This document shows, piece by piece, positions 31,995-58,688 of a stretch of DNA of 64,000 nt. Both the position numbers and the translations under genes were made by a program. The stretch's first letter is position 1; every line of letters begins with the position of its first letter. The stretch covers positions 1 to 64,000 of the forward strand of contig JAIXUP010000006.1 of assembly GCA_027483505.1 (NCBI GenBank), in the 5' to 3' direction. Below the pieces are notes generated by a model. It ran no database searches. It saw only the letters and a program-made list of their open reading frames with translations, and was not told the DNA's origin. The stretch comes from Hyphomicrobiales bacterium. Its GTDB lineage: Bacteria > Pseudomonadota > Alphaproteobacteria > Rhizobiales > Beijerinckiaceae.

Positions 31995-33374
31995 TTACGC
32001 CAGGAGGCCCTCGGCATGGGCCCAGTTCTGCGTCTTGACCAGCGCGCGCTCGTAGCGATCGAACAATTCGTCGATCTCCGCTTCCGAAATGATCAGCGGC
32101 GGGCAGAAAGCCACGCGGTCGCCGGCCAGATTGCGCAGGATCAGCCCTTCTTCCTGGGCGAAGGCGCAGGACTTGGCGGCGACAGCCTTCTTAACGTCGA
32201 ACTGCTCGCGGGTGTGCTTGTTGCGGACGAACTCGATCCCGCCGATCAGGCCGACGCCGCGCGCTTCGCCGATCATCGGATGCTCGCGCAGGCGTTCCAG
32301 ACGGGCGAGGAAGCGCGGGGCCACCTTCCGCACGCGATCGATGATCTTGTCGCGATGGTAGATCTCCAGCGTCTTCAGCGCCACGGCGCAGCCGACAGGG
32401 TGGCCCGAATAGGTGTTGCCATGGCCGAAGGTGCCAATCTTGCGGCTCTGGTCGACCAGCACGTCATGCATGTGCTCGGGGATGAAGATGGCGCTGAGCG
32501 GGAAATAGGCCGAGGTCAGCGCCTTGGCGCAGGAGATGGTGTCGGGCTTGCAGCCCAGGGTCGTTGATCCGAACCAGTTGCCGGTGCGGCCGAAACCGGT
32601 GATCACCTCGTCGGCGATCATCAGAACGTCGTACTTGTTCAACACGGTCTGGATGGCCTGGAAATAGCCCTTTGGCGGCACGATGGCGCCGCCGGCGCCC
32701 ATCACCGGCTCTGCGATGAAGGCCGCCACCGTGTCCGGCCCTTCGCGCAGGATCATCTCCTCCAGCTCCGCCGCCATGCGCGCCGAGAACGCTTCCTCCG
32801 TCTCGCCCTCGTGGCCGAAACGGTAGTGATGCGGGCAGGAGGTGTGCAGGATGCCCTGGATCGGCAGGTCGAAGTCGATGTGGTTGTAGGGCAGGCCTGT
32901 CAGGGAGGCCGAGGCGACGGTTACGCCGTGATAGCCCTTCAGACGGGCGATGAACTTCTTCTTTTTCGGCCTGCCAAGCGCATTGTTCATGTACCAGATC
33001 ATCTTGATCTGGGTGTCGTTGGCGTCCGAGCCCGATGAGCCATAATAGATCTTCGAGACCGGCATGGGCGCGATCTCCTTGAGCTTCTCGGCCAGTTCGA
33101 TGGCCGGGTCATGGCTGCGGCCGGAGAACAGGTGGGCGAAGGGCAGCTTCGCCATCTGTTCGCGCGCGGCCTCGACCAGCTCTCCATTCGAGTAGCCGAG
33201 CGAGGTGCACCACAGGCCCGAAAGCCCTTCGATGTAGTCCCGTCCCGCGCTGTCGAAAACGCGCACGCCTTCGCCGCGTTCCAGCACCAGGGGCCCGGCC
33301 TCGCGGTGCGTCGCCAGGTTCGTGTAGGGATGGACGAGTGTTTCGATGTCGCGGACTTGTGCGTTGGTAAGCAT
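31995..33374 (-). CDS. Class III (omega) PLP aminotransferase
   Basis: LWCTSLGYSN, YYGSSGSDANDTQIKMIWYMNNALGRPKKKKFIARLKGYHG, ADEVITGFGRTG, K in SCAKALTSAY; ATG at 33374, longer ORF rejected. Confidence 0.93.
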   Translation of the reverse strand: MLTNAQVRDIETLVHPYTNLATHREAGPLVLERGEGVRVFDSAGRDYIEGLSGLWCTSLGYSNGELVEAAREQMAKLPFAHLFSGRSHDPAIELAEKLKEIAPMPVSKIYYGSSGSDANDTQIKMIWYMNNALGRPKKKKFIARLKGYHGVTVASASLTGLPYNHIDFDLPIQGILHTSCPHHYRFGHEGETEEAFSARMAAELEEMILREGPDTVAAFIAEPVMGAGGAIVPPKGYFQAIQTVLNKYDVLMIADEVITGFGRTGNWFGSTTLGCKPDTISCAKALTSAYFPLSAIFIPEHMHDVLVDQSRKIGTFGHGNTYSGHPVGCAVALKTLEIYHRDKIIDRVRKVAPRFLARLERLREHPMIGEARGVGLIGGIEFVRNKHTREQFDVKKAVAAKSCAFAQEEGLILRNLAGDRVAFCPPLIISEAEIDELFDRYERALVKTQNWAHAEGLLA

Positions 33375-33570
33375 GATCTGAACCTCTCCGAGGACCACAG
33401 GTTTGACGCGTTCGCGGCAAAGCACAACCCCCAGCAACGAATGCTGGGGGCGTGAAGGGATGCATCGGCGCGCGTTTGCCGCAGGTGATCCCGCGCTTGC
33501 CGGACTGACCGTGCGGTTTTCCGGCAGGTGAGGCCCTTGCGACGGTGCACAGGACTTGTATGATCGCGAA

Positions 33571-34743
33571 ATGCGGACACCTGTTCGGAATGCGAACAAA
33601 TTATCGGACGGCGGAGCCGGGCCGCAGCCGCGCCCCGGTGTCGGATTGATCGTCAATCCGGTCGCTGGTCTGGGCGGGGCGGTCGGCCTGAAGGGCACGG
33701 ACGGCGCGGCTGCCCAGCAGGCACTGGCGCTTGGGGCGAGGCCGAAATCGCAAGTCCGCGCGGCACGCGCGCTGGAACTGTTGTCCGCGCTGAAGAACCG
33801 GATCGACCTTGTTTGTGCGCCGGGCGCGATGGGCGCCGATCTCGCCACGTCGCTCGGCTTCAGTTGCCGGACCCTCGGGACAGCAGGAGCCGCCACGACA
33901 TCGCGCGACACACGCGATGCGGCCGCCGCAATGGCTGAGGCCGGGGTCAGCATGATTATGTTTGCGGGTGGAGACGGCACGGCACGCGACGTCTTTGACG
34001 GCGCGCCAGGCGTCGGGCTTCTGGGTGTGCCCACGGGCGTCAAGATGCATTCGGGCGTCTTTGGCGCGTCGCCGGAAGCCGCAGGCCGGGTCGCTGCGCT
34101 GGTCCTCGGCAGCGAGCCTGCGCGCGTCGAGTGGCGCGAAGCCGAAATCATGGACATCGACGAAGAAGCGCTGCGCCTTGGCCATGTTGCAGCGAGGCTC
34201 TACGGCTATGCCCGCTCGCCGCTGGAACGGACGGCCATGCAGAATTGCAAGACGCCATCGCGCCGCGATGACGATCCGGCGCTGGACGCGCTGGCCCGGC
34301 GGATCGTCCGCGAGATGGACCCGGGCATCCTGCATGTGCTGGGCTGCGGCACCACGATGCGCAAGATCAAGCGACAGCTTGGCGGGGAGGGTACCTTGCT
34401 CGGCGTTGACGTCGCCCTGAATGGCCGGCTGATCGCGACCGATGTGGACGAGGCCAGGCTTCTGCGGCTCACAAGCGGCGTGCCGTTCAAGGTCATTACC
34501 AGCGTGACCGGAGGGCAGGGCTTTGTCTTCGGTCGCGGCAATCAGCAGATCAGCGCAGCAGTCCTGCAGCGCGCGGGGCGCGACAACGTGATGATCGTCA
34601 CGAGCCAGAGCAAGCTGGTCATGCTCGACCCGCCATGTCTTCGCGTCGATACGGGCGATCGGCAGGTCGATGCGATGCTCGCCGGGTACATGCGGGTTCA
34701 CACCGCCCCGGGTCACACCATGATGATGCGGATCGCCGCATGA
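33571..34743 (+). CDS. ATP-NAD kinase/AcoX-like protein (start uncertain; TTG 33646 possible)
   Basis: VGLIVNPVAGLGG, FAGGDGTARDVFD, GVPTGVKMHSGVFG. Confidence 0.85.
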   Translation: MRTPVRNANKLSDGGAGPQPRPGVGLIVNPVAGLGGAVGLKGTDGAAAQQALALGARPKSQVRAARALELLSALKNRIDLVCAPGAMGADLATSLGFSCRTLGTAGAATTSRDTRDAAAAMAEAGVSMIMFAGGDGTARDVFDGAPGVGLLGVPTGVKMHSGVFGASPEAAGRVAALVLGSEPARVEWREAEIMDIDEEALRLGHVAARLYGYARSPLERTAMQNCKTPSRRDDDPALDALARRIVREMDPGILHVLGCGTTMRKIKRQLGGEGTLLGVDVALNGRLIATDVDEARLLRLTSGVPFKVITSVTGGQGFVFGRGNQQISAAVLQRAGRDNVMIVTSQSKLVMLDPPCLRVDTGDRQVDAMLAGYMRVHTAPGHTMMMRIAA

Positions 34744-34756
34744 CACCCCCCTTCCC

Positions 34757-36187
34757 GTGACGATGAGAGGAGCCGGCCCTGTGAGTCCGACCAACGCCAT
34801 AGCCCATCCCTACATGGCCAACTCGGTGCCCGAGATCAAAGCGGCGATGCTGAAGGACATCGGCGCCAAGTCCATCGCCGAACTGTTCGAGCAGATTCCG
34901 GCCGATCACCGCATGAAGAAGCCGCTGAAGCTGGCCCCCGGCATGCGCTCGGAGGCGGACCTCAAGAAGCATCTGGTCGGCCTGCTGCGCAAGAACAGCA
35001 CATGCGAGTCGCATCTGAGCTTTCTCGGCGCCGGGATCTGGCAGCATCATGTCCCGGCCATCTGCGACGAGATAGGCACAAGGTCGGAGTTCCTGACCTC
35101 GGTCTGGGGCACGGCTATGTCGGATCATGGCCGCAACCAGGCCTGGTTCGAGTTCTGCGCCCAGCTTGGCGAACTGGTCGGCATGGAGTTCGTCGGCCTG
35201 CCCGTCTACTCTTGGGGCTGCGCCGCGGGCAACGCCATCCGCATGGCGGCCCGCATCACAGGGCGCTCGGAAGTGCTGGTTCCGGAGACGCTCTGCCCCG
35301 AGCGGCTCGCCGTGATCCGGCAATACTGCGAGCCAGCGGAGATGGCGCGGCACATCAAGGTCGTCCCGATCCGGCATGACGCGAAGACCGGCCTGATCGA
35401 CCTCAAGGATCTCAAGGCGCGCCTCTCGGACAGGACCGCCGCCGTCTACTTCGAGAACCCAGGCTATCTCGGCATGATCGAGACCCAGGGAGCCGATATC
35501 GCGCGGATGGCCCGAGCGGCGGGGGCCGAGACCATTGTCGGCGTCGACCCGATCTCGCTCGGCGTGCTGGCCCCGCCAACTGACTATGGAGCGGACATCG
35601 TTGTCGGGACCATCCAGACGCTTGGCGTGCACATGAGCGCCGGGGGCGGCGCGGGCGGCTTCATCGCCTCGCGGGACGAGGAGGTCTACGCCCGCGAATA
35701 CCCGACGCTGAACATCTCGATCACCGATACGACGCATCCCGGCGAGGTCGGGTTCGGCCTGACGCTGTTCCACCAGTCGTCCTACGGGCTGCGTGAGGAG
35801 GGCAAGGACTGGACCGGAAACTCGGTCTACCTCACAGCCATCCAGAACGCGGTCTACATGTCGCTGCTCGGTCCCGAAGGCTTCCGTGAAATCGGAGAAC
35901 TGATCATCGCGCGCGCCCACTACGCCGCCCGGCGGATCGGCGCGATCAAGGGCGTGTCGGTCAACTGGCCAGCCGGCTTCTTCAAGGAGTTCGTCGTCGA
36001 TTTCTCCCGCACCGGCAAGACCGTGGCGAAAATCAACAAGGCGCTGCTGAAGCGCGGAATCTTCGGAGGCAAGGACCTGTCGAAGGACTTCCCCAAGCTC
36101 GGCCAGAGCGCGCTCTATGCCGTCACCGAATGCCATGGCGCTGACGACATTGATCGTCTGGTCGCCGCCCTCAAGGAGATCCTGTGA
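34757..36187 (+). CDS. Divergent glycine dehydrogenase (decarboxylating) subunit 1-like, GcvPA-like
   Basis: DIGAKSIAELFEQIP...LSFLGAGIWQHHVPA...RSEFLTS; GVDPISLGVLAPPTDYGADIVVG. Confidence 0.82.
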   Translation: MTMRGAGPVSPTNAIAHPYMANSVPEIKAAMLKDIGAKSIAELFEQIPADHRMKKPLKLAPGMRSEADLKKHLVGLLRKNSTCESHLSFLGAGIWQHHVPAICDEIGTRSEFLTSVWGTAMSDHGRNQAWFEFCAQLGELVGMEFVGLPVYSWGCAAGNAIRMAARITGRSEVLVPETLCPERLAVIRQYCEPAEMARHIKVVPIRHDAKTGLIDLKDLKARLSDRTAAVYFENPGYLGMIETQGADIARMARAAGAETIVGVDPISLGVLAPPTDYGADIVVGTIQTLGVHMSAGGGAGGFIASRDEEVYAREYPTLNISITDTTHPGEVGFGLTLFHQSSYGLREEGKDWTGNSVYLTAIQNAVYMSLLGPEGFREIGELIIARAHYAARRIGAIKGVSVNWPAGFFKEFVVDFSRTGKTVAKINKALLKRGIFGGKDLSKDFPKLGQSALYAVTECHGADDIDRLVAALKEIL

Positions 36188-37791
36188 TGAGGACGCCATC
36201 AAAAGCCATGCCGACCGTACGTGAAGTGCATCAGGCGCGCTGGAACGAGCCAGTGGTGATGGAGATGGGCGTCCCCGGCCGGCGCGGCGCGGTCTATTCA
36301 GCGCCGGAGGCCGTCGTCGAGAAGGCCGTCGGCAAGGCGGCGGATCTTGTGCCGGCCGCGATGCGCCGCAAGAACCGCCCTGCCTTGCCCGAAATGACCG
36401 AGCCGGATGTGCTGCGGCATTACCTGCACCTGTCGCAGATGGTTCACGGCATGATGGGCGTGAACCTGTTCGGCACCTGCACCATGAAATACAACCCGCG
36501 CATCTCGACCCATCTGACGCTCCGCCCCGAACTGGCGACGCTCCATCCCTACCAGCCCGAGGAAACCCTTCAGGGCCTGCTGGAGATCGTGCACAGCTTC
36601 GACCTGATCCTGCGCGAACTGTCGGGCATGGACCAGTTCGTGTTCCAGGCGGCCGGCGGCGCGGGCGCGGCCTATACCCATGCCTGCATCACGCGCGGCT
36701 ACTTCCAGGCGAGGGGCGAACTGGCGCAGCGCAACGAGATCATCTCGACGATCCAGACCCATCCCTGCAACCAGGCCACCGCGGCGACCGCCGGCTTCAA
36801 CGTCATCACGCTGCCGCTGGAGGAGAACGGCTATCCCTCGATCGAGGCCTTGCAGGGCGCCCTGTCGAACCGCACGGCCGCGCTGATGGTCAACAATCCG
36901 GACGACATGGGCGTCTACAATCCGCAGATCAAGGACTGGGTGAAGCTGGTCAAGAAGGCGGGCGCGCTGGCCTTCTACGACCATGCCAACTTCAACGGCG
37001 TGATGAGCAAGATCAGGGCGCGCGAACTGGGTTTCGACGCCTGCATGTTCATGCTGCACAAGACCTTCGGCGGCCCCAAGGGCGGCGGCGGTCCCGCGGT
37101 CGGGGCCTATGGCTGCAGCGCCGAGCTTGCGCCCTTCCTGCCAAAGCCCATCGTGCGGCTTGACGACAAGACGGGACGCTACCGGCTTGATGCCGACCGC
37201 AAGCTCAGCGTCGGCAAGGTGCGCGAGTATTTCGGCAATCTGCAGGTGGTGTTCTACGCCTATGCCTGGGCGCGGGCGATGGGCGGCGACGGCATCACGG
37301 AGGCCTCCGATCTTGCGGTGCTCGCCAACAACTACATGGAGAAGAAGCTCCTCGCGATCCCGGGCGTGGTCAAGTCGCAGCCGCAGATGACCATGCATCG
37401 CATGGAGATGACGCGCTACGGGCTTGGACCTCTCAAGGAGGAAACCGGCATCGGCATCGTCGAGGTCGGCGCGCGCATGACCGATTACGGCGTCGACAGC
37501 CCGTGGCTGAGCCACGAGCCCTGGGTCGTGCCGGAGCCTTTCACGCCCGAGCCGGGCGAGTTGTGGTCCAAGGAGGACATCGACTACTGGATCGCGGCGC
37601 TGGCCAAGGTTTGCGAGGAGGCCCGCACGAACCCTGATCTGGTCCGCACGGCCCCGCACAACGCCGCGATTCACGCGATCAACGGCGCGCGGCTTGATGA
37701 TCCGGCCTGGTGGGCCACGACCTGGCGGGCCTACAAGCGCAAGCAGGCGCCTGCCGCCAGGGCGGGCGGGAAGGCTGCTTCCAGCCGATGA
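36184..37791 (+). CDS. Divergent glycine dehydrogenase (decarboxylating) subunit 2-like, GcvPB-like
   Basis: NLFGTCTMKYNPRIS, LHPYQPEETLQGLLE, PLP lysine context MLHKTFGGPKGGGGPAVG. Confidence 0.84.
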   Translation: MMRTPSKAMPTVREVHQARWNEPVVMEMGVPGRRGAVYSAPEAVVEKAVGKAADLVPAAMRRKNRPALPEMTEPDVLRHYLHLSQMVHGMMGVNLFGTCTMKYNPRISTHLTLRPELATLHPYQPEETLQGLLEIVHSFDLILRELSGMDQFVFQAAGGAGAAYTHACITRGYFQARGELAQRNEIISTIQTHPCNQATAATAGFNVITLPLEENGYPSIEALQGALSNRTAALMVNNPDDMGVYNPQIKDWVKLVKKAGALAFYDHANFNGVMSKIRARELGFDACMFMLHKTFGGPKGGGGPAVGAYGCSAELAPFLPKPIVRLDDKTGRYRLDADRKLSVGKVREYFGNLQVVFYAYAWARAMGGDGITEASDLAVLANNYMEKKLLAIPGVVKSQPQMTMHRMEMTRYGLGPLKEETGIGIVEVGARMTDYGVDSPWLSHEPWVVPEPFTPEPGELWSKEDIDYWIAALAKVCEEARTNPDLVRTAPHNAAIHAINGARLDDPAWWATTWRAYKRKQAPAARAGGKAASSR

Positions 37792-37828: not shown

Positions 37829-38473
37829 ATGGCCCTGACCATCTACGGCGCGGCCCGGACCCGGACATCGCGCGTGCTCTGGATCGCGGAGGAACTTGGC
37901 CTCGCCTACCGGCACGAGAAGCTCGCGCCGCAGAAGGGCGAGACCCGGACCGCTGCCTTTCTGGCGCTGAACCCGATGGGCCGCGTGCCGGCGATCGATG
38001 ATGACGGCCTGATCGTCTGGGAGTCGCTGGCGATCAACCTGCATCTGGCGCGGAAGTACGGTGCAGCAGCCTCCGCTGGCGGGCCCGCGTTGGGGCCGCG
38101 CGATCTCGGCGAGGAAGCGCTGATGACCCAGTGGACGCTCTGGACGGCAACGGAGTTCGAGCCGGGCGCCCATGATGTCGTTGTCCAGACCATCAACCTC
38201 CCCGAAGACCAGCGCGACCCGGCCAAACGCGATCTGGCGCTTGCCGCCCTGGCGCGGCCGCTCGGAGCGTTGAACACGGCTCTCGGGCTTGGCGGCGGCC
38301 ATCTCGTCGGCGGCCGGTTCACCGTGGCCGATCTCAATGCCGCCTGCGCGGCCTTCTATCTCCGGGCTGTGCCGCACGCGTTCGCGGCCTGTCCGAACGT
38401 GGCCGGCTGGTACGCGGCGACCACCGCCCGTCCGGCCTTTCAGCGCATGCTGGCCTTGAGGGATGCGGGGTGA
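37829..38473 (+). CDS. Glutathione S-transferase family protein
   Basis: MALTIYGAARTRTSRVLWIAEELGLAYRHEKL...LNPMGRVPAIDDDGLIVWESLAI; GGRFTVADLN. Confidence 0.9.
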   Translation: MALTIYGAARTRTSRVLWIAEELGLAYRHEKLAPQKGETRTAAFLALNPMGRVPAIDDDGLIVWESLAINLHLARKYGAAASAGGPALGPRDLGEEALMTQWTLWTATEFEPGAHDVVVQTINLPEDQRDPAKRDLALAALARPLGALNTALGLGGGHLVGGRFTVADLNAACAAFYLRAVPHAFAACPNVAGWYAATTARPAFQRMLALRDAG

Positions 38474-39381
38474 CCCTCCCGCCGGACCCGCCGCATCTGT
38501 GGCCCGAGGAACGCTGGCGGTCGCTGGTGGGGCGCATTCGTGCCGGTCGCAGGTTGCGCCCTGCGGCCTGGAAGGATGGCGCGCGCTGCGCCGTGGCGCT
38601 GTCCTTCGATGCGGACCACGAGACCTTCGAGATGGGTCTGGGCGGTCAGGCCATGGGCCGTTTGGCCTGGGGTGAGTTCGGACGCAGGGTCGGCGTGCCC
38701 CGCATCCTGGCGCTCCTGAAGCGGCATGACGTGCCCGCCACCTTCTTCATCCCGGCGGTGTCGGCCCTGATCGACCCGGACGAGCCGCGCCGCATCGCCG
38801 CAGACGGCCATGAGATCGGCGTTCACGGCTGGATCCATGAGAATAACTCGCTGCTGCCCTACGAGGTCGAGCGCGATCTGATGCTGCGCGCCCGCGAGAC
38901 GCTGGCCCGGCTGTCCGGTCAGGAGCCGGTCGGCCTTCGCTCGGCCAACTGGGACACCTCGCCCAACACGGTGCGCATCGTGAAGGAGATGGGTCTGGTC
39001 TATGACTCGTCCCTGATGGCGGATGAGGAACCCTATGAACTGCTGCTGGATGGCGTTCCAACCGGTCTCGTCGAGGTTCCGGTCGAATGGTTGCGCGATG
39101 ACGCCGTTTATTTCCTCTTCAACCGCAATCCGGCCACCCGCCCTTACACCGCGCCTGCCGATGTGCTGGAGATCTTCCGGCGCGAATTCGATGCCGCCTA
39201 TGACGAGGGCACGGTGTTCCAACTGGTGATGCATCCTTTCGTGATCGGCTACCGTTCGCGGATATGGATCCTCGATGAACTGATCCGCCATGCCCGCGGT
39301 CGGCCCGGCGTCTGGTTCGCCAGCCATGCCGAGGTCGCCGCCTATGCGCGCGACCACGCTGTCGCGGAGGCTGCATCGTGA
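38470..39381 (+). CDS. Polysaccharide deacetylase (NodB-like) family protein
   Basis: ALSFDADHETFEMG, PATFFIPAVSALI, HEIGVHGWIHEN. Confidence 0.88.
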   Translation: MTLPPDPPHLWPEERWRSLVGRIRAGRRLRPAAWKDGARCAVALSFDADHETFEMGLGGQAMGRLAWGEFGRRVGVPRILALLKRHDVPATFFIPAVSALIDPDEPRRIAADGHEIGVHGWIHENNSLLPYEVERDLMLRARETLARLSGQEPVGLRSANWDTSPNTVRIVKEMGLVYDSSLMADEEPYELLLDGVPTGLVEVPVEWLRDDAVYFLFNRNPATRPYTAPADVLEIFRREFDAAYDEGTVFQLVMHPFVIGYRSRIWILDELIRHARGRPGVWFASHAEVAAYARDHAVAEAAS

Positions 39382-40346
39382 ACGCGGAGAGCCAGGAGGC
39401 CGTCGCCGTGGTCGGGGCCGGTTCGATCGGCGTGGCCTGGGCCATTGTCTTTGCGCGCGGCGGCCACGACGTTCGCCTGCAGGATCCGGACGCGGAGCGC
39501 CGCGAGCGGGCCCCGGCCGAGATTGCCCAGCGGCTCGAAGCCCTTGCCGCCGCAGGTCTCATCGATGAGCCGCCCGCTGCGCTCGCGAAGCGGATCACGC
39601 TGCATGCCGACCTTGGCGAGGCGCTGGCTGGCGTGGCGCATGTGCAGGAAAATGCGCCGGAGAGGCTGGAGATCAAGCAGGACCTGTTTGCGGCGTTTGC
39701 ACGTCTTGCACCGCCCGATGCGGTCCTGGCCTCGTCATCGTCGGCGATCACCGCCTCCAACTTTGCACCACCAGACAGCGCGCGGTCGCGCTGTCTGGTG
39801 GTGCATCCCGGAAACCCGCCCTTCCTGATCCCGGTGGTCGAACTGGTTCCGGCGCCGTTCACGGCGAATTCAGTGGTCGAGCAGTGCCGCGCGCGGCTCC
39901 GGCGCTGCGGCATGAGACCCGTGCTGGTGTCCCGCGAGGTGGAAGGCTTCGTCTTCAACCGTCTGCAGGGCGCGATGCTGCGCGAGGCCTATTGCCTCGT
40001 CCGCGACGGGGTGATCGGCGTGGAAGACCTTGACACCGTGGTGCGCGACGGCCTCGGCTTGCGCTGGGGCGTGATTGGCCCGTTCGAGACCGCCGATCTC
40101 AACACCCGCGGCGGCGTGGCCTCGCACGCGCAGAAAATGGGTCCGGCCTATGCCCGCATGGGCGCGGAGCGGGGCCAGCATGATCCATGGACGGAGCCGC
40201 TGGTGGCGCGCGTCGCCGCGGAACGCCGTGCGCTTCTGCCGCTGCAGCAATGGCAGGCGCGGGTGGAGTGGCGTGACCGGGCCCTCATGGCGCTGGTCGC
40301 CGCAAAACAGAGCTTGCCGCCCTTCGAGCCGGAGGAGGGGCCGTGA
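39378..40346 (+). CDS. 3-hydroxyacyl-CoA dehydrogenase/lambda-crystallin (L-gulonate dehydrogenase)-like
   Basis: VAVVGAGSIGVAWAIVFARGGHDVRLQDPD; VQENAPERLEIKQDLF; VVHPGNPPFLIPVVELVP. Confidence 0.88.
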   Translation: MNAESQEAVAVVGAGSIGVAWAIVFARGGHDVRLQDPDAERRERAPAEIAQRLEALAAAGLIDEPPAALAKRITLHADLGEALAGVAHVQENAPERLEIKQDLFAAFARLAPPDAVLASSSSAITASNFAPPDSARSRCLVVHPGNPPFLIPVVELVPAPFTANSVVEQCRARLRRCGMRPVLVSREVEGFVFNRLQGAMLREAYCLVRDGVIGVEDLDTVVRDGLGLRWGVIGPFETADLNTRGGVASHAQKMGPAYARMGAERGQHDPWTEPLVARVAAERRALLPLQQWQARVEWRDRALMALVAAKQSLPPFEPEEGP

Positions 40347-42028
40347 GCGGTCGACTGACCATCACCTTCGAGGACCGCACGATCGGCGCGTTTCCCGGGC
40401 AGAGCCTCGGAGCGGCGCTGGCGGCCAGCGGCGAACTCGCCCTGCGCCATACGGCAGGGGGCGATTGCCGCGGGATGTTCTGCGGCATGGGTGTCTGTCA
40501 GGACTGTCTGGTGACGGTCGACGGCGCACCCAACCAGCGGGCCTGCATGGTCAAGGTGGCCGACGGCATGGTGGTGCGCCGACAGGCGGCACCCGGTGAG
40601 ACGCCGCCTGCGCGGGTGGGTGCCGCGCCGATCCTGTTCGAGAACCTACAGACGGTCACCGCGGATGTGCTGGTGATCGGAGGCGGGGCAGGGGGGCTGA
40701 GCGCTGCCCTGGCCGCGCGCTCCTGCGGCCTTGACGTGCTGCTGCTCGACGAGCGGCAGACGGCGGGCGGGCAATACTACAAGCAGCCCTCCGCGGCCCT
40801 GAAGGCTGAACCGCTCGACCGCCAGCAGCGCGACGGGGCGGCCCTGCGCCAGCGCTGCGAAGGCGCCGGCGTGCGGATCATTGATGGCGCCGAGACATTC
40901 GCCGCGCTTGATGCAGGCTCCGTGATGGCGACCCATGCCGGCCGCACGGCGGTTTACCGCGCTCGGGCGATGGTCATCGCCACTGGCGCCTATGAACGGG
41001 CCGTGCCAATTCCCGGCTGGACGCTGCCCGGCGTGATGACGACCGGGGCCCTGCAGACCCTGTGGCGCAGCCACCGCGCCTTGCCCGGCCGCCGCATCCT
41101 GATCGCCGGCAATGGACCGCTGAATCTGCAGGTGGCTTGCGAGGTCATGGCTGCAGGGGCGGACGTTGTGGCGGTTGCGGAGGCGGCGGCGCTGTTCGCG
41201 CCAGCCCGTGCCGGAGCCGCGTTGCGCATGGTGCTGCACGATCCGGCGCTGACGGCGACGGGGCTTGCGCTGATGGCACGCGCCCGGCTTGGCGGCGCGA
41301 CGCTGCATTTTGGCGCGGTCGCGCGCGGCATTTCAGCCGTCGAAGGCGGGCTTGAGGTCGAACTCGGCAGCGCGACGGGCGGTCACGGCGAACGCTTTGT
41401 CGTTGATGCAGTGGCGTTGGGCTATGGCTTCCAGCCCTCGAACGAGTTGCTGCGGGCGTTGGGAGCCCGGCATGACTACGATCCTGGCATCCGCGCCCTG
41501 CGAACGGTGCGCACGCGCGAGTGCGAAACCACGGTGCCGAACCTGTTTGCCGTCGGCGACGCCTGCGGCCTCGGCGGGGCTCCGGCCGCTCTCGCGGAAG
41601 GAGAGATTGCCGGCCTGGCCATTGCGGAAAGACTGGGCGCCAGGTCACCGGCAGGCGTGTCCGCTGATGCGGCGCATCGTCGGCTCGAAGGCCATCGCCG
41701 GTTTCAGGCGGCCCTCTGGCGCCTCTATGACGCCCCGTCGCCGAGACTGTCGCTGGCGGACGACGCTACGCTGATCTGCCGCTGCGAAGAGGTCAGCAAA
41801 GCCGCCTTGTTGGCCGCGATGGCCGACGGCGAACCGTCGATCGGCGCGGTGAAGCGGCGGACCCGCGCGGGCATGGGGCGCTGCCAGGGGCGCTATTGCG
41901 GACCGCTGATCGCGGCGCATCTGGCGGAGGAGACCGGGCGGCCGCTGGATGAACGCGCGCTGTTCGCGCCGCGTGCGCCCGTCAAGCCGGTGACGATCTC
42001 CGATCTGGTCGGCGGGTCGGCACCATGA
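40343..42028 (+). CDS. Fused [2Fe-2S]-ferredoxin/FAD-dependent amine (opine oxidase alpha-like) oxidoreductase, copy 1
   Basis: N-terminal CRGMFCGMGVCQDC; FAD motif VLVIGGGAGGLSAALAA; C-terminal CRCEEVSKAALL...GMGRCQGRYC. Confidence 0.88.
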   Translation: MSGRLTITFEDRTIGAFPGQSLGAALAASGELALRHTAGGDCRGMFCGMGVCQDCLVTVDGAPNQRACMVKVADGMVVRRQAAPGETPPARVGAAPILFENLQTVTADVLVIGGGAGGLSAALAARSCGLDVLLLDERQTAGGQYYKQPSAALKAEPLDRQQRDGAALRQRCEGAGVRIIDGAETFAALDAGSVMATHAGRTAVYRARAMVIATGAYERAVPIPGWTLPGVMTTGALQTLWRSHRALPGRRILIAGNGPLNLQVACEVMAAGADVVAVAEAAALFAPARAGAALRMVLHDPALTATGLALMARARLGGATLHFGAVARGISAVEGGLEVELGSATGGHGERFVVDAVALGYGFQPSNELLRALGARHDYDPGIRALRTVRTRECETTVPNLFAVGDACGLGGAPAALAEGEIAGLAIAERLGARSPAGVSADAAHRRLEGHRRFQAALWRLYDAPSPRLSLADDATLICRCEEVSKAALLAAMADGEPSIGAVKRRTRAGMGRCQGRYCGPLIAAHLAEETGRPLDERALFAPRAPVKPVTISDLVGGSAP

Positions 42029-43167
42029 GCGGCTTCGATGTGCTGGTGGCGGGCGGCGGCATCGTCGGCATGACTGCCGCGCTCGACCTTGCGCGCGAAG
42101 GCCGGTCGGTGATCATCGTCGATGAGGGCCGGCATTCGGGCACGACGGCGAACGCCGGCAGCCTGCACATCCAGATGCAGAGCCGCTTCATCCGGATGTA
42201 CCCCGAACAGGTGGCCGACCTCGAACGCTCCTTGCCGCTCTATCCGGCTGGGGCGGCGCGCTGGCGGGAATTGGAAGCGGAACTGGGCGCGGATCTGGAG
42301 ATCAAATCCTCCGGCGGGCTGATGGTCGCCGATGATGCCGGGCAGTTCGCCTTCCTCGCAGACAAATGCGCCCGCGAGCGTCGGCTCGGGCTTGATGTGC
42401 ACATGCTGGAGCGGGCCGAGTTGGCCCGGATCGCGCCCTATCTTGGCGAAGCCGTCCATGGCGCCGAACTCTGCGTGGAGGAGGGCAAGCTCAACCCGCT
42501 CAAGGCGAACGAAGCCATCCGCACGACGCTTCAGGCGCTGGGCGTCCAGCGCCTGGACGAGACCGTGATCACGGCGCTTTCACCTGCCGGGCATGGCATC
42601 GAGGCGAGGCTGAGCCACCGCGGCGGTCAGCGCAGCCTGAGCGCCGGACAGGTCATTCTCGCGGCAGGATCGGGCACAGGCCAGCTTGCGGCCATGCTCG
42701 GCGTGACCATTCCCACCGTGGCCGAGCCGCTGCACGTCAACGTTACGGAAGCGACGGCGCCGCTGATCGGCCATCTGGTGCAGCACGCCGAACGGATGAT
42801 CACGATGAAGCAACTCGGCGCGGGGCAGGTCGTGATCGGGGGTGGCTGGCCGGCTCGTTTCACCGGCCCGGAAGAGTTCCCCACCGTCGATCCCGCCAGC
42901 ATGATCGGCAATCTCAGTCTTGCCCAGCACATCGTGCCGCGGCTCGGTTCGTTGCGGGTGATCCGCACATGGGCCGGCGTCAACACAACGACCGACGGCC
43001 AGTGCGTTCTGGGCAAGCTCCCCGGGCACGACAACGTCTTCTCCGCCGTTCCGGGAGATGCCGGCTATACGCTCGGGCCTCTGGTCGGGCGCATGGCCGC
43101 CGCCCTGGCCATGGGCAGGGATCCGGGCCACGACATCGCCCGCTTCACGCCGGCACGCTTCGGGTGA
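42025..43167 (+). CDS. FAD-dependent D-amino-acid dehydrogenase/opine oxidase beta-like, copy 1
   Basis: DVLVAGGGIVGMTAALDLAREGRSVIIVDEG; DAO-family C-terminus; ATGA coupling to previous gene. Confidence 0.87.
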   Translation: MSGFDVLVAGGGIVGMTAALDLAREGRSVIIVDEGRHSGTTANAGSLHIQMQSRFIRMYPEQVADLERSLPLYPAGAARWRELEAELGADLEIKSSGGLMVADDAGQFAFLADKCARERRLGLDVHMLERAELARIAPYLGEAVHGAELCVEEGKLNPLKANEAIRTTLQALGVQRLDETVITALSPAGHGIEARLSHRGGQRSLSAGQVILAAGSGTGQLAAMLGVTIPTVAEPLHVNVTEATAPLIGHLVQHAERMITMKQLGAGQVVIGGGWPARFTGPEEFPTVDPASMIGNLSLAQHIVPRLGSLRVIRTWAGVNTTTDGQCVLGKLPGHDNVFSAVPGDAGYTLGPLVGRMAAALAMGRDPGHDIARFTPARFG

Positions 43168-55376: not shown

Positions 55377-56141
55377 TCAGGGGATCAGCCCGGCATCGAC
55401 AGGCAGCACTCGTCCGGTGAGCCCTGACGCCATCTCGCTGGCGAGAAACAGCGCGGCCCGCGCCACATCGTCCTCGCCTGCCATCCGTCCCAGTGGCGTC
55501 TGTGCGGCAAAGGCCGAGAGTGCCTCGTCCGGTGAGGGGCCGCCTTCGCTGGCGCGCTGGTGCAGCCGTCCGATCAGCGCCTCCGTCGCCACCGGGCCGG
55601 GCGCGAGCGCGTTGACGCGGATCCCGTAGCGACCGAGGTCGAGCGCCGCGGCGCGCATGATCCCCAGCACGGCATGCTTGCTGGCGGTGTAGAGCATCTG
55701 GCGCGGATGGGAGACCATGGCATTGATCGAGGCCATCAGGATGATCGCGCCGCCCCGGGCTTTCAGATGCGGCACGGCGTGGGCCACGGTCGCCGCGACG
55801 CCGCGCACATTCACAGCCATCACGGCGTCCCATTCGGCAAAATCGAGCTCTTCCGTTTGCCGCCAGGGCGGAACGAGCCCGGCATTGGCGACCACGATGT
55901 CAAGCCCGCCAAGGCTGGCGGCGGCCTCGGTGATCGCCCGCTCAACCCCGGCAGGATCGGTGACGTCGCAGGCGAGGCCGAGGTCGCCCTGCCATGCGCC
56001 GGGCGCTGCCAACGCGGAAGGATGATCGAGCGCCGCGACCTCAGCCCCGGCGTCGCGAAACGCCCGGCCGATCGCCGCTCCGAGACCGCGCGCCGCGCCG
56101 GTGACGAGGGCCCGTCGGCCAAGTAGAAGTGCTGCTGTCAC
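55377..56141 (-). CDS. SDR family oxidoreductase
   Basis: RALVTGAARGLGAAIGRAF, VVANAGLV, YTASKHAVLGIMRAAA, C-terminal LTGRVLPVDAGLIP. Confidence 0.92.
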   Translation of the reverse strand: MTAALLLGRRALVTGAARGLGAAIGRAFRDAGAEVAALDHPSALAAPGAWQGDLGLACDVTDPAGVERAITEAAASLGGLDIVVANAGLVPPWRQTEELDFAEWDAVMAVNVRGVAATVAHAVPHLKARGGAIILMASINAMVSHPRQMLYTASKHAVLGIMRAAALDLGRYGIRVNALAPGPVATEALIGRLHQRASEGGPSPDEALSAFAAQTPLGRMAGEDDVARAALFLASEMASGLTGRVLPVDAGLIP

Positions 56142-57931
56142 GGCTGTTCTGCTCCGGTTCCGGCCGCCTGCCCGCCAAGGTCAAGCGCCGCGATCGCGGC
56201 AACGGAAACGGGCCTCAGCGGTGTTCGCGGTGCGAACATCTGCTCGGCATCGGGTTGCCCACCCAGCGCGCCCGCAAGCAACTCGGCCGCCAGCGGCGCG
56301 CAGTAGCGGCCCTGGCAGCGGCCCATGCCGAGCCGGGTCTGGCGCTTGATGGCCCCAAGGCTCGTGGCCCCGCTGTCGAGCGCAGCACGCAGCGCGCCCT
56401 GCGAGACCTCCTCGCACCGGCAGACCAGCGTATCAGGGCCGGCCAGTTCGGTCGTGATCGGCTGGCCGCGATAGATTGACCAGAGCGCTGTCTGGAACCG
56501 CGAGGCCCGCCGCAGTTCTGTGCGGGCCCTGTCGAGCTCGCGCGTCTGTTCCGGGCCGGGCGCGGCGCCGCACGCGCGGGCCGCTGCGTAGCCGGCGATA
56601 ACCCCGCTGGCCATCGCGATCCGCGCCCCGCCAAAGCGCGCCCCGTCGCCGGCGGCGAAGATGTCTGGCCTGCCGGTGCGGCCATCGCCGTCGCAGCTGA
56701 GCGCAAGATGCCGCCAGTGCTCGTCAAACCTGAGCTCGCACCCGAGCGCTGCTGCAAGCTCCAGCGCCGGATTGAAGCCGTATCCAAGGCACAGGACATC
56801 CGCCTCAAGCCACTGGATGCGGCTCATGTCAGGCTTGCGGCACGCATCAAGCGGCGCCAGCGCAACCCGTGACACGCGCCCATCACCCTCGGCTCTGATG
56901 ACGGCGTGGCCATGGAGGAGGGGCACGCCGTGCCTGAGCAGGGCCAGCCGGTAGCCCAGCCCGTCCGCGACCAGCTGCGGTGCCATCGCCAGCATCGTGG
57001 CGAGATGCGGCAATGCCCGCAGGCCCGGCGCGGGCGACAATTCGGCCACTGCGACCACCTTTATGCCCGCGCGCAGCAACTCCGCCGCCAGTTGCAGGTT
57101 CAGCGGACCATGTCCCGCAATGAGCACCCTCCGGCCCGGCGAAACGGCGTAGGCCCTCAGAAAGCTCTGCGCCGCCCCGGTCGTCATCACGCCGGGCAAG
57201 GTCCAGCCGGGGAAGGGCGCTGCCCGCTCGACGGCGCCGGTGGCCAGCACGAGCTTGCGGTAGATCACCCGGCGCGTGCCGCCCGGCTGGACAATCAGCA
57301 GGTCATTGGCCCCCGTGCTCGACCAGACGGCGGCTTCGGCAAGGTGGGTGACGCCGGCTGCGATTGCACGGGCGGCGAGGGCGCGCCCCTCGCGGAACTG
57401 CCGGTCCAGTGCCGATGCGGTGACCGGAAGCCCCTCAGCGGGCTGCTTGAAATACTGTCCGCCAGCCAGCTTCCGCTCGTCGATCATGGCCACACGGAGG
57501 CCGGAACGTGCCGCCGCCAGCGCCGCCGACAGGCCCGCCGGGCCGCCGCCGACCACGGCGACATCGACGCTCAGAGGCGCAGCACCGCCGGATTCGGTCC
57601 GATCCGGCGCTTGCCGCAGGCGCGGCGTATGCGTCGCGACAGCCATGCCGGCCGTCACGGGCGTCAGGCAGGCCCGCACCGTGTCGCCATCCGCCGTGAC
57701 GAGGCAGTCATGGCACGCGCCCATGCCGCAAAACGGCCCGCGCGCCGCGTCGTTGCGTGTCAGCCTGCAGGCCGGCCGCCCCGCCGCAGCCAGGGCCGCC
57801 GCGATGGTCTCGCCGGGATGGGCCTGCAAGGGCTCGCCATTGAAATTGAAACTGAGCGGCGGTTGGCGTGGCGCAATGCCCGGCAGCGTGACCCGAAGGC
57901 CTGCCGTTGGCCTCGCCGCCTCATCGGACAT
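56138..57931 (-). CDS. Fused [2Fe-2S]-ferredoxin/FAD-dependent amine (opine oxidase alpha-like) oxidoreductase, copy 2
   Basis: PFCGMGACHDC, VAVVGGGPAGLSAALAAARSG, CRCEEVSQGALR...GMGRCQGRYC; paralog of 40343-42028. Confidence 0.88.
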   Translation of the reverse strand: MSDEAARPTAGLRVTLPGIAPRQPPLSFNFNGEPLQAHPGETIAAALAAAGRPACRLTRNDAARGPFCGMGACHDCLVTADGDTVRACLTPVTAGMAVATHTPRLRQAPDRTESGGAAPLSVDVAVVGGGPAGLSAALAAARSGLRVAMIDERKLAGGQYFKQPAEGLPVTASALDRQFREGRALAARAIAAGVTHLAEAAVWSSTGANDLLIVQPGGTRRVIYRKLVLATGAVERAAPFPGWTLPGVMTTGAAQSFLRAYAVSPGRRVLIAGHGPLNLQLAAELLRAGIKVVAVAELSPAPGLRALPHLATMLAMAPQLVADGLGYRLALLRHGVPLLHGHAVIRAEGDGRVSRVALAPLDACRKPDMSRIQWLEADVLCLGYGFNPALELAAALGCELRFDEHWRHLALSCDGDGRTGRPDIFAAGDGARFGGARIAMASGVIAGYAAARACGAAPGPEQTRELDRARTELRRASRFQTALWSIYRGQPITTELAGPDTLVCRCEEVSQGALRAALDSGATSLGAIKRQTRLGMGRCQGRYCAPLAAELLAGALGGQPDAEQMFAPRTPLRPVSVAAIAALDLGGQAAGTGAEQP

Positions 57932-58688
57932 AGCTAGCGCCATTGACGTCAAGGGTCGCGCCCGTCAGGTGCCTGACCTTGCCCGTCGCGAGGAAGGCCA
58001 CCAGTTCGCCAATGTCGGATGGCGGCACCCATTCGCCCATGGCCAACATGGCCGTGACCTTGTCCTCGCCGCCCTGTGATGCGGCAAAATCCTCCGACAT
58101 GCGCGTCCGCACAACGCCCGGCGCGACGACATAGCTCAGGATGTTGTCCTTGGCATAGCCGCGGGCGATGCTCTGGGCAGCGGCCTTCACCGCCGCCTTG
58201 CTGGCCGCATAGGCGAGCATGGCCGGGTTGGTCACGCCGCGCTGGGCCGCCCAGCTTGAAATGGTGATCAGGACGCCGCCGCCGACTTCCCGGTAGTGCC
58301 GCACCGCATGACGCATCAGGCGCGTCGGCGCCAGGACATTGATGCGCCACTGGCTGTCCCAGGCCGAATCCCAGGCCTCGATGCCGTCGTCGATGCCGCC
58401 ATCGACCAGCATGACCGCAGCGTTGAGGACAACCGCATCGATTCGCCCGCGCCAGGCCAGCGCGGCCTGCCAGAGCCCGTCCATGCTGTCCGGCTGGCTC
58501 TGGTCAGCGCTGATGAAGGCTTTACGCTCCGCCGGAATGGCGCTGAGAGCGGCCTCCGCGCCGGCGCGGTCGCGTCCGTAATGGGCGATCACGCTCGCAC
58601 CCTCTGCCGCCAGTGAGGCGGCGATGGCCGCGCCGATGCCCTTCGACGCCCCGGTCACCAGAACAACTTTGCCGCCTAGTGTCGCCAT
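57921..58688 (-). CDS. SDR family oxidoreductase
   Basis: KVVLVTGASKGIGAAIAASLAAEG, YAASKAAVKAAAQSIARGYA, C-terminal LTGATLDVNGASYVR. Confidence 0.92.
   Translation of the reverse strand: MATLGGKVVLVTGASKGIGAAIAASLAAEGASVIAHYGRDRAGAEAALSAIPAERKAFISADQSQPDSMDGLWQAALAWRGRIDAVVLNAAVMLVDGGIDDGIEAWDSAWDSQWRINVLAPTRLMRHAVRHYREVGGGVLITISSWAAQRGVTNPAMLAYAASKAAVKAAAQSIARGYAKDNILSYVVAPGVVRTRMSEDFAASQGGEDKVTAMLAMGEWVPPSDIGELVAFLATGKVRHLTGATLDVNGASYVR

Follow-up and report, generated by a model that had tools for sequence, protein, structure and literature searches.

A kinase-linked, split P-protein-like pair and its likely role outside glycine cleavage

To our knowledge, the glycine decarboxylase (P-protein) family is regarded as single-function. 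For the human enzyme GLDC, the listed active-site residues include Y161 and Y164, and a docking model makes R373 and K376 salt-bridge partners of the H-protein (PMC7259800). The DNA stretch analyzed here, 64,000 nucleotides from a Hyphomicrobiales bacterium (the window), carries two adjacent genes, A' and B', which resemble the two subunits of the split form of this enzyme and are preceded by a kinase gene, K (Table 1). Both reading frames of the pair were present where a preliminary description of the stretch had placed them. Taking the evidence as a whole, we consider it fairly likely that A'B' is an H-protein-independent, kinase-coupled PLP enzyme working outside glycine cleavage. A description of the K-A'-B' trio was not found in the open-access literature; subscription papers and preprints were mostly not covered, and a characterized member may exist.

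Table 1. Features of the trio and its surroundings in the window
Feature	Position	Strand	Evidence
Class III aminotransferase, divergent to K	31998..33353	-	NF004767 692 bits
K: ATP-NAD-kinase/diacylglycerol-kinase superfamily kinase	33556..34743	+	PF01513 68 bits; PF20143 50 bits
A': GcvPA-like subunit	34757..36187	+	NF001696 436 bits (cut-off 364); PF02347 158 bits; nearest PDB 1wyt_A
B': GcvPB-like subunit, PLP lysine Lys293 (HKTF)	36184..37791	+	NF003346 482 bits (cut-off 441); phmmer 1wyt_B 1.9e-72
PuuE/polysaccharide-deacetylase-type hydrolase	38470..39381		at most two genes from the trio at 7 loci
Lambda-crystallin/3-hydroxyacyl-CoA-dehydrogenase-type dehydrogenase	39378..40346	+	NF004783 446 bits; cluster in 27 loci
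HcnAB-like [2Fe-2S]-FAD-BFD oxidoreductase subunit	40343..42028	+	PF13510, PF07992, PF04324; cluster in 30 loci
DAO-family FAD oxidoreductase (HcnC/SoxB-like), partner of the preceding gene	42025..43167	+	PF01266 163 bits; cluster in 43 loci
Second HcnAB-like [2Fe-2S]-FAD-BFD fusion	56141..57952	-	

The products of A' and B' are 476 and 535 residues long, respectively, and both score above the NCBIfam equivalog cut-offs of the curated profiles for GcvPA and GcvPB. Their frames are supported by the GC content at codon position 3, which is 0.86-0.88 in the sense frames. A' probably starts at the GTG at 34781, behind GAGAGGAG, rather than at 34757. The two genes overlap by GTGA, and B' is translationally coupled to A'. 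The two chains of the Thermus P-protein 1wyt are the closest solved sequences to the pair. An AlphaFold model of B' (mean pLDDT 72.6) gave GcvPB as its first structure matches. No match to Pyridoxal_deC (PF00282), the family of sphingosine-1-phosphate lyase, was found at E 0.001. A'B' is probably a heteromeric PLP enzyme descended from the split glycine decarboxylase GcvPA/GcvPB.

Phylogenetic analysis of 57 B-subunit sequences (a quick tree search with SH-aLRT support only) grouped the trio B subunits in one clade with a support of 99, which was joined by a Streptomyces protein (L100) at a support of 100. The branch to the trio and L100, with 2.41 changes per site, was the longest inner branch of the tree, and the trio clade stood apart from both split and full-length GcvP. 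The proposal that the pair belongs to a repurposed P-protein family, for which a phylogeny had been suggested as a check, is well supported by this placement in a clade of its own (support 99-100) outside the canonical P-proteins and by the remodelled active site described below. Sequence identities are about 28-35% to canonical split subunits and 24-30% to full-length GcvP. Close relatives were found at a minimum of 208 loci across several bacterial phyla in a scan of one genome per species; 80 of these were examined with their flanks and, together with five plasmid regions, make up the 85 loci discussed here. Some trios are plasmid-borne, and a pair on a haloarchaeal plasmid (Natronosalvus) shares 51% identity. 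Trio proteins found with alcohol dehydrogenase (ADH) and LLM oxidoreductase genes differ very little from phylum to phylum in the tree, suggesting that they spread horizontally in recent times. A second A'-B'-kinase set, 44-47% identical and in the order A-B-K, occurs in Streptomyces niphimycinicus (L133:7802-11975) and is an older branch of the trio system. This set adjoins an SDR, a GntR regulator and an ABC permease.

To describe the active site, 105-107 trio relatives were compared with 18 canonical sequences. The PLP-anchoring residues of B' (H193, D266, H292, K293 and TCTMKY) were kept across the relatives. Three altered motifs had been pointed out previously, and the first two stand as read: A' has VWG-TAMSDHGRNQ where canonical GcvPA has YTPYQPExSQGxLQ, and PVYSWGCAAGNA where the canonical sequence is S(M/L)YDGATAxAEA. 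The third, THPCNQATA in B' in place of AHGTNPATA, is only partly a replacement: the PLP-stacking His is kept, as are the Ala and the Thr, and the Asn is kept in about 80% of the clade. The active-site YTPYQPE of subunit A is absent from all 105 relatives, which instead have a loop of the xWG-x type, reading VWG-xxxS in A', with one Tyr deleted. Likewise, the H-protein-facing stretch REQHIRREKATSN (REQHIRR(E/D)KATSN) of A' has become QSSYGxRxxGKDW in the trio clade. By motif matching, human Y161/Y164 and R373/K376 would map onto these two replaced stretches. B' also carries swaps at positions invariant in the 18 canonical sequences, namely H to K299, H to M288, N to M290, HE to E408-M409 and T to W441. 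Many of the substitute residues are themselves invariant in the new clade, and the motif changes are not due to chance, since they are fixed in about 105 relatives. Basic residues newly fixed in the clade show no clear excess over basic residues lost, which counts against the kinase-coupled reading. Judged from the alignments, the substitution pattern is that of a new function under its own constraint and not of decay. A broken or degenerate gcvP was considered and rejected, as many substitute residues are invariant and the frames are intact.

The absence of gcvT and gcvH, noted earlier for the window, was found to extend to the whole genome (G000; 3.9 Mb, 87 contigs, 99.93% complete). A second GcvP was found neither by protein search nor by PF02347, so that the check for a separate canonical gcvTHP locus came back empty, and GcvH was not found by a search that was positive in 13 of 14 control genomes. 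No dedicated GcvT was present among the GcvT-fold matches in the genome. These consist of a 1010-residue frame that is SoxA-like in length and look, a 358-residue demethylase-type protein with a MetF-like gene next to it (both identities resting on length and sequence, not on a family search), and a short partial match. The possibility that gcv genes are hidden in contig gaps was rejected: contig C37 opens with a GcvT-like gene of the demethylase type, followed by a MetF-like gene, and the situation is alike in the 20 contigs of a genome (G096) that belongs to a different family of the order. This second genome carries kinase-A'-B' at 47-63% identity, with A'B' as its sole P-protein, and has no proper GcvH, the only hit being a 38-residue lipoyl-domain match in a 517-residue frame. 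The pair therefore persists without a glycine cleavage system in two families. In all 39 other trio-bearing genomes searched, GcvH was accompanied by an additional canonical GcvP, either full-length or split; both sets of genomes further support a repurposed P-protein. Within the genus of the window's host, two members (G041 and G050) have both GcvH and canonical GcvP, and three with small genomes (G065, G070 and G073) have neither of these nor the pair. The preliminary description had counted it against its own proposal if the pair were the only gcvP of the genome and worked with GcvH. The pair is literally the only one; working with GcvH is impossible here, as the genome has none.

These data also bear on whether A'B' is still a glycine-cleavage P-protein, with the lipoyl domain of a 2-oxoacid dehydrogenase E2 as its acceptor. 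Lipoylated E2 proteins are present in most genomes, the GcvPA and GcvPB equivalog cut-offs are passed and the PLP site is intact, all of which agree with such a role. However, neither the YTPYQPE loop nor the REQHIRREKATSN stretch is conserved, a separate GcvP with GcvH is retained in 39 of 39 other hosts, a dedicated GcvT is missing from the window's genome, and the linkage to a kinase would be left unexplained. We regard this explanation as very improbable.

The neighbouring ATP-NAD kinase-like gene, which we take to be COG3199/AcoX-like, is present as previously described but is more than a neighbour. A kinase adjoins A'B' at 80 of the 85 loci, in the order K-A-B at 66 and divergently at 10, which led us to reject a chance association; some of the kinase-less exceptions are fragments ending at contig edges. 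The second Streptomyces pair described above, about 45% identical, also has the kinase alongside. No annotated kinase was seen next to the Natronosalvus pair, and the kinase may thus not be needed everywhere. K, A' and B' form one near-constant unit. The start of K is uncertain, with the conserved domain beginning near residue 29, and GGDGT and about 40 other columns are invariant among 27 aligned relatives. No relative of K was found in the PDB by sequence, and its model gave weak fold matches (TM about 0.2) to diacylglycerol, sphingosine and NAD kinases. Trio kinases are split from same-family kinases elsewhere with 100% support. Twelve such kinases from a sample of 200 Pseudomonadota genomes do not lie beside an A'B'-type pair, and some adjoin a PdxB-like, ALDH or OYE gene. 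The PdxB-like neighbour (2-Hacid_dh plus DUF3410) was seen in two Pseudomonadota families (L141, L146, L142, L143, L145 and L147), hinting at a role of the kinase family in vitamin B6 intermediates. Given such non-trio members, the family's role may be a general one, concerned with cofactors or metabolites.

It could accordingly be asked whether K only supplies or repairs a cofactor for the operon (NADP+ or a B6 intermediate) and leaves the substrate untouched. The NAD-kinase domains of K and the PdxB-like genes beside its relatives in two families are consistent with this. Against it, trio kinases do not reach the cut-off of any NCBIfam NAD kinase equivalog, giving weak sub-cutoff matches with diacylglycerol kinase models first, and a housekeeping role leaves a kinase clade tied to A'B' unexplained. 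A purely cofactor-directed kinase therefore seems unlikely to us.

Attempts to deduce the substrate from operon partners did not yield a single pathway, since the contexts fall into at least four types. The first contains DAO/HcnAB-like flavin amine oxidases, a DHDPS-family lyase, OYE, SDR, a lambda-crystallin dehydrogenase and SBP_bac_3 or sugar-type ABC transporters; it is found in Rhodobacterales and in the 33.5-58 kb stretch of the window. The second combines a TetR or other regulator with an acyl-CoA ligase (Pseudomonas, Rhodococcus, Streptomyces, Acidovorax), the third a class III aminotransferase, ALDH and IclR (Microvirga, Paraburkholderia, Chromatocurvus, Eilatimonas), and the fourth ADH, LLM oxidoreductase and DUF1330 (Sphingomonas, Pedobacter). 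Genes lying no more than two genes away from the trio included an SBP_bac_3 ABC transporter at 12 loci, an AMP-ligase at 8 and an ALDH at 5. An APC permease and an ArgE/DapE deacylase were also found nearby and, together with the SBP_bac_3 genes, suggest an amino-acid-like substrate. The PuuE-type hydrolase of the window may belong to this pathway and act on a cyclic imide or an amide.

The aminotransferase subfamily of the window lies within two genes of the trio at 7 of 80 loci, which belong to Alpha-, Beta- and Gammaproteobacteria and Actinobacteria, and the window protein shares 46-50% identity with the aminotransferases at most other aminotransferase-bearing trio loci. This would fit A'B' being a plain PLP amino-acid decarboxylase, whose protonated carbanion would yield an amine that is oxidized by the class III aminotransferase and an aldehyde dehydrogenase, the kinase acting elsewhere. 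Some of the seven loci indeed carry an SSADH-type ALDH, and the ancestor of A'B' was a decarboxylase. Most loci lack an aminotransferase, however, and have an acyl-CoA ligase, DHDPS/flavin-oxidase genes or ADH/LLM genes instead, and the near-constant kinase would have no explanation. We therefore see in it a possible, if rather unlikely, account of the pair.

Returning to the kinase-coupled enzyme that we favour, the substrate of A'B' is probably an amino acid phosphorylated by K. In the mechanism that we propose, Lys293 of B' would form an aldimine with a non-glycine amino acid, and K would phosphorylate this substrate or a precursor of it. A'B' would then generate a C-alpha carbanion, probably by decarboxylating the substrate as its ancestor did, and the electrons would leave by expulsion of phosphate, not by attack on lipoamide, giving an enamine or imine. 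Dehydrogenases, reductases or a CoA ligase would take over the product after its hydrolysis. A non-glycine PLP decarboxylase is a possible function, with elimination chemistry as an alternative. The step with phosphate as the leaving group is, specifically, a doubtful part of the scheme. Equally speculative is its most explicit form, in which a phosphorylated amino acid loses its carboxyl group to an enzyme of P-protein descent, the phosphate replaces the lipoyl disulfide of the H-protein as electron sink, and an aldehyde or ketone arises in one step.

RidA domains hydrolyze reactive imines and enamines, and a fused aldo-keto reductase-RidA protein was found within two genes of the trio at 11 loci (e.g., L036:5818-7518), which speaks for the proposed enamine or imine. 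Its presence would agree as well with the flavin amine oxidases that these operons encode. It would also suit a lyase without decarboxylation, for which K would produce an O-phospho amino acid or amino alcohol, with A'B' then eliminating the phosphate or cleaving a C-C bond. Sphingosine kinase and sphingosine-1-phosphate lyase follow an analogous kinase-then-lyase scheme. The joint conservation of kinase and PLP partner points in the same direction, as do the weak matches of the K model and the occurrence of sphingosine-1-phosphate lyase, after GcvP, among the next fold neighbours of the B' model. The likeness to this lyase is nevertheless a general fold-type I one and the kinase fold scores are poor, and such a lyase appears improbable.

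The paralog clade is widespread, and its combination of an invariant active site of its own with a fixed kinase partner would give the glycine decarboxylase family a second function; phosphate as an electron sink would, if true, be a new reaction type for it. The equivalog models NF001696 and NF003346 accept this clade above cut-off. The glycine dehydrogenase label has thereby spread to proteins outside glycine cleavage, and part of a glycine cleavage system is attributed to genomes that have none, so that models of one-carbon metabolism are misled. The trio would also provide a defined three-gene set for discovering an unrecognized step of amino-acid breakdown.

Compared with known systems, A'B' belongs to the P-protein homology family but lacks the tested defining features of a glycine-cleavage P-protein beyond profile, fold and PLP residues. 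Sphingosine kinase with sphingosine-1-phosphate lyase is similar in its manner of working only, pairing a kinase of the DAGK/NADK superfamily with a fold-type I PLP enzyme; the proteins belong to other families and the substrate is, as far as known, unrelated. K shares the N and C domains of NAD kinase and the GGDGT motif with the ATP-NAD kinase/AcoX-like COG3199 proteins, and differs from NAD kinase in matching no equivalog, in having no PDB relative by sequence and in being tied to a PLP enzyme. Full-length GcvP/GLDC (PDB 4lhd, 6i35) has the same fold and PLP site, but is a single chain of about 950 residues that keeps the H-protein-facing and YTPYQPE stretches. GcvPA/GcvPB of Thermus thermophilus (1wyt/1wyu/1wyv) is among the best sequence and structure matches of the pair, and likewise consists of two homologous fold-type I subunits in tandem, with the PLP lysine of the B subunit (HKTF), (S/T)CTMKYNP, the stacking His and the pyridine Asp in common. 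In contrast to GcvPA/GcvPB, A'B' forms a separate clade, has lost the YTPYQPE and REQHIRREKATSN stretches, and is found with a kinase partner in catabolic operons without gcvT or gcvH, here in a genome without GcvH.
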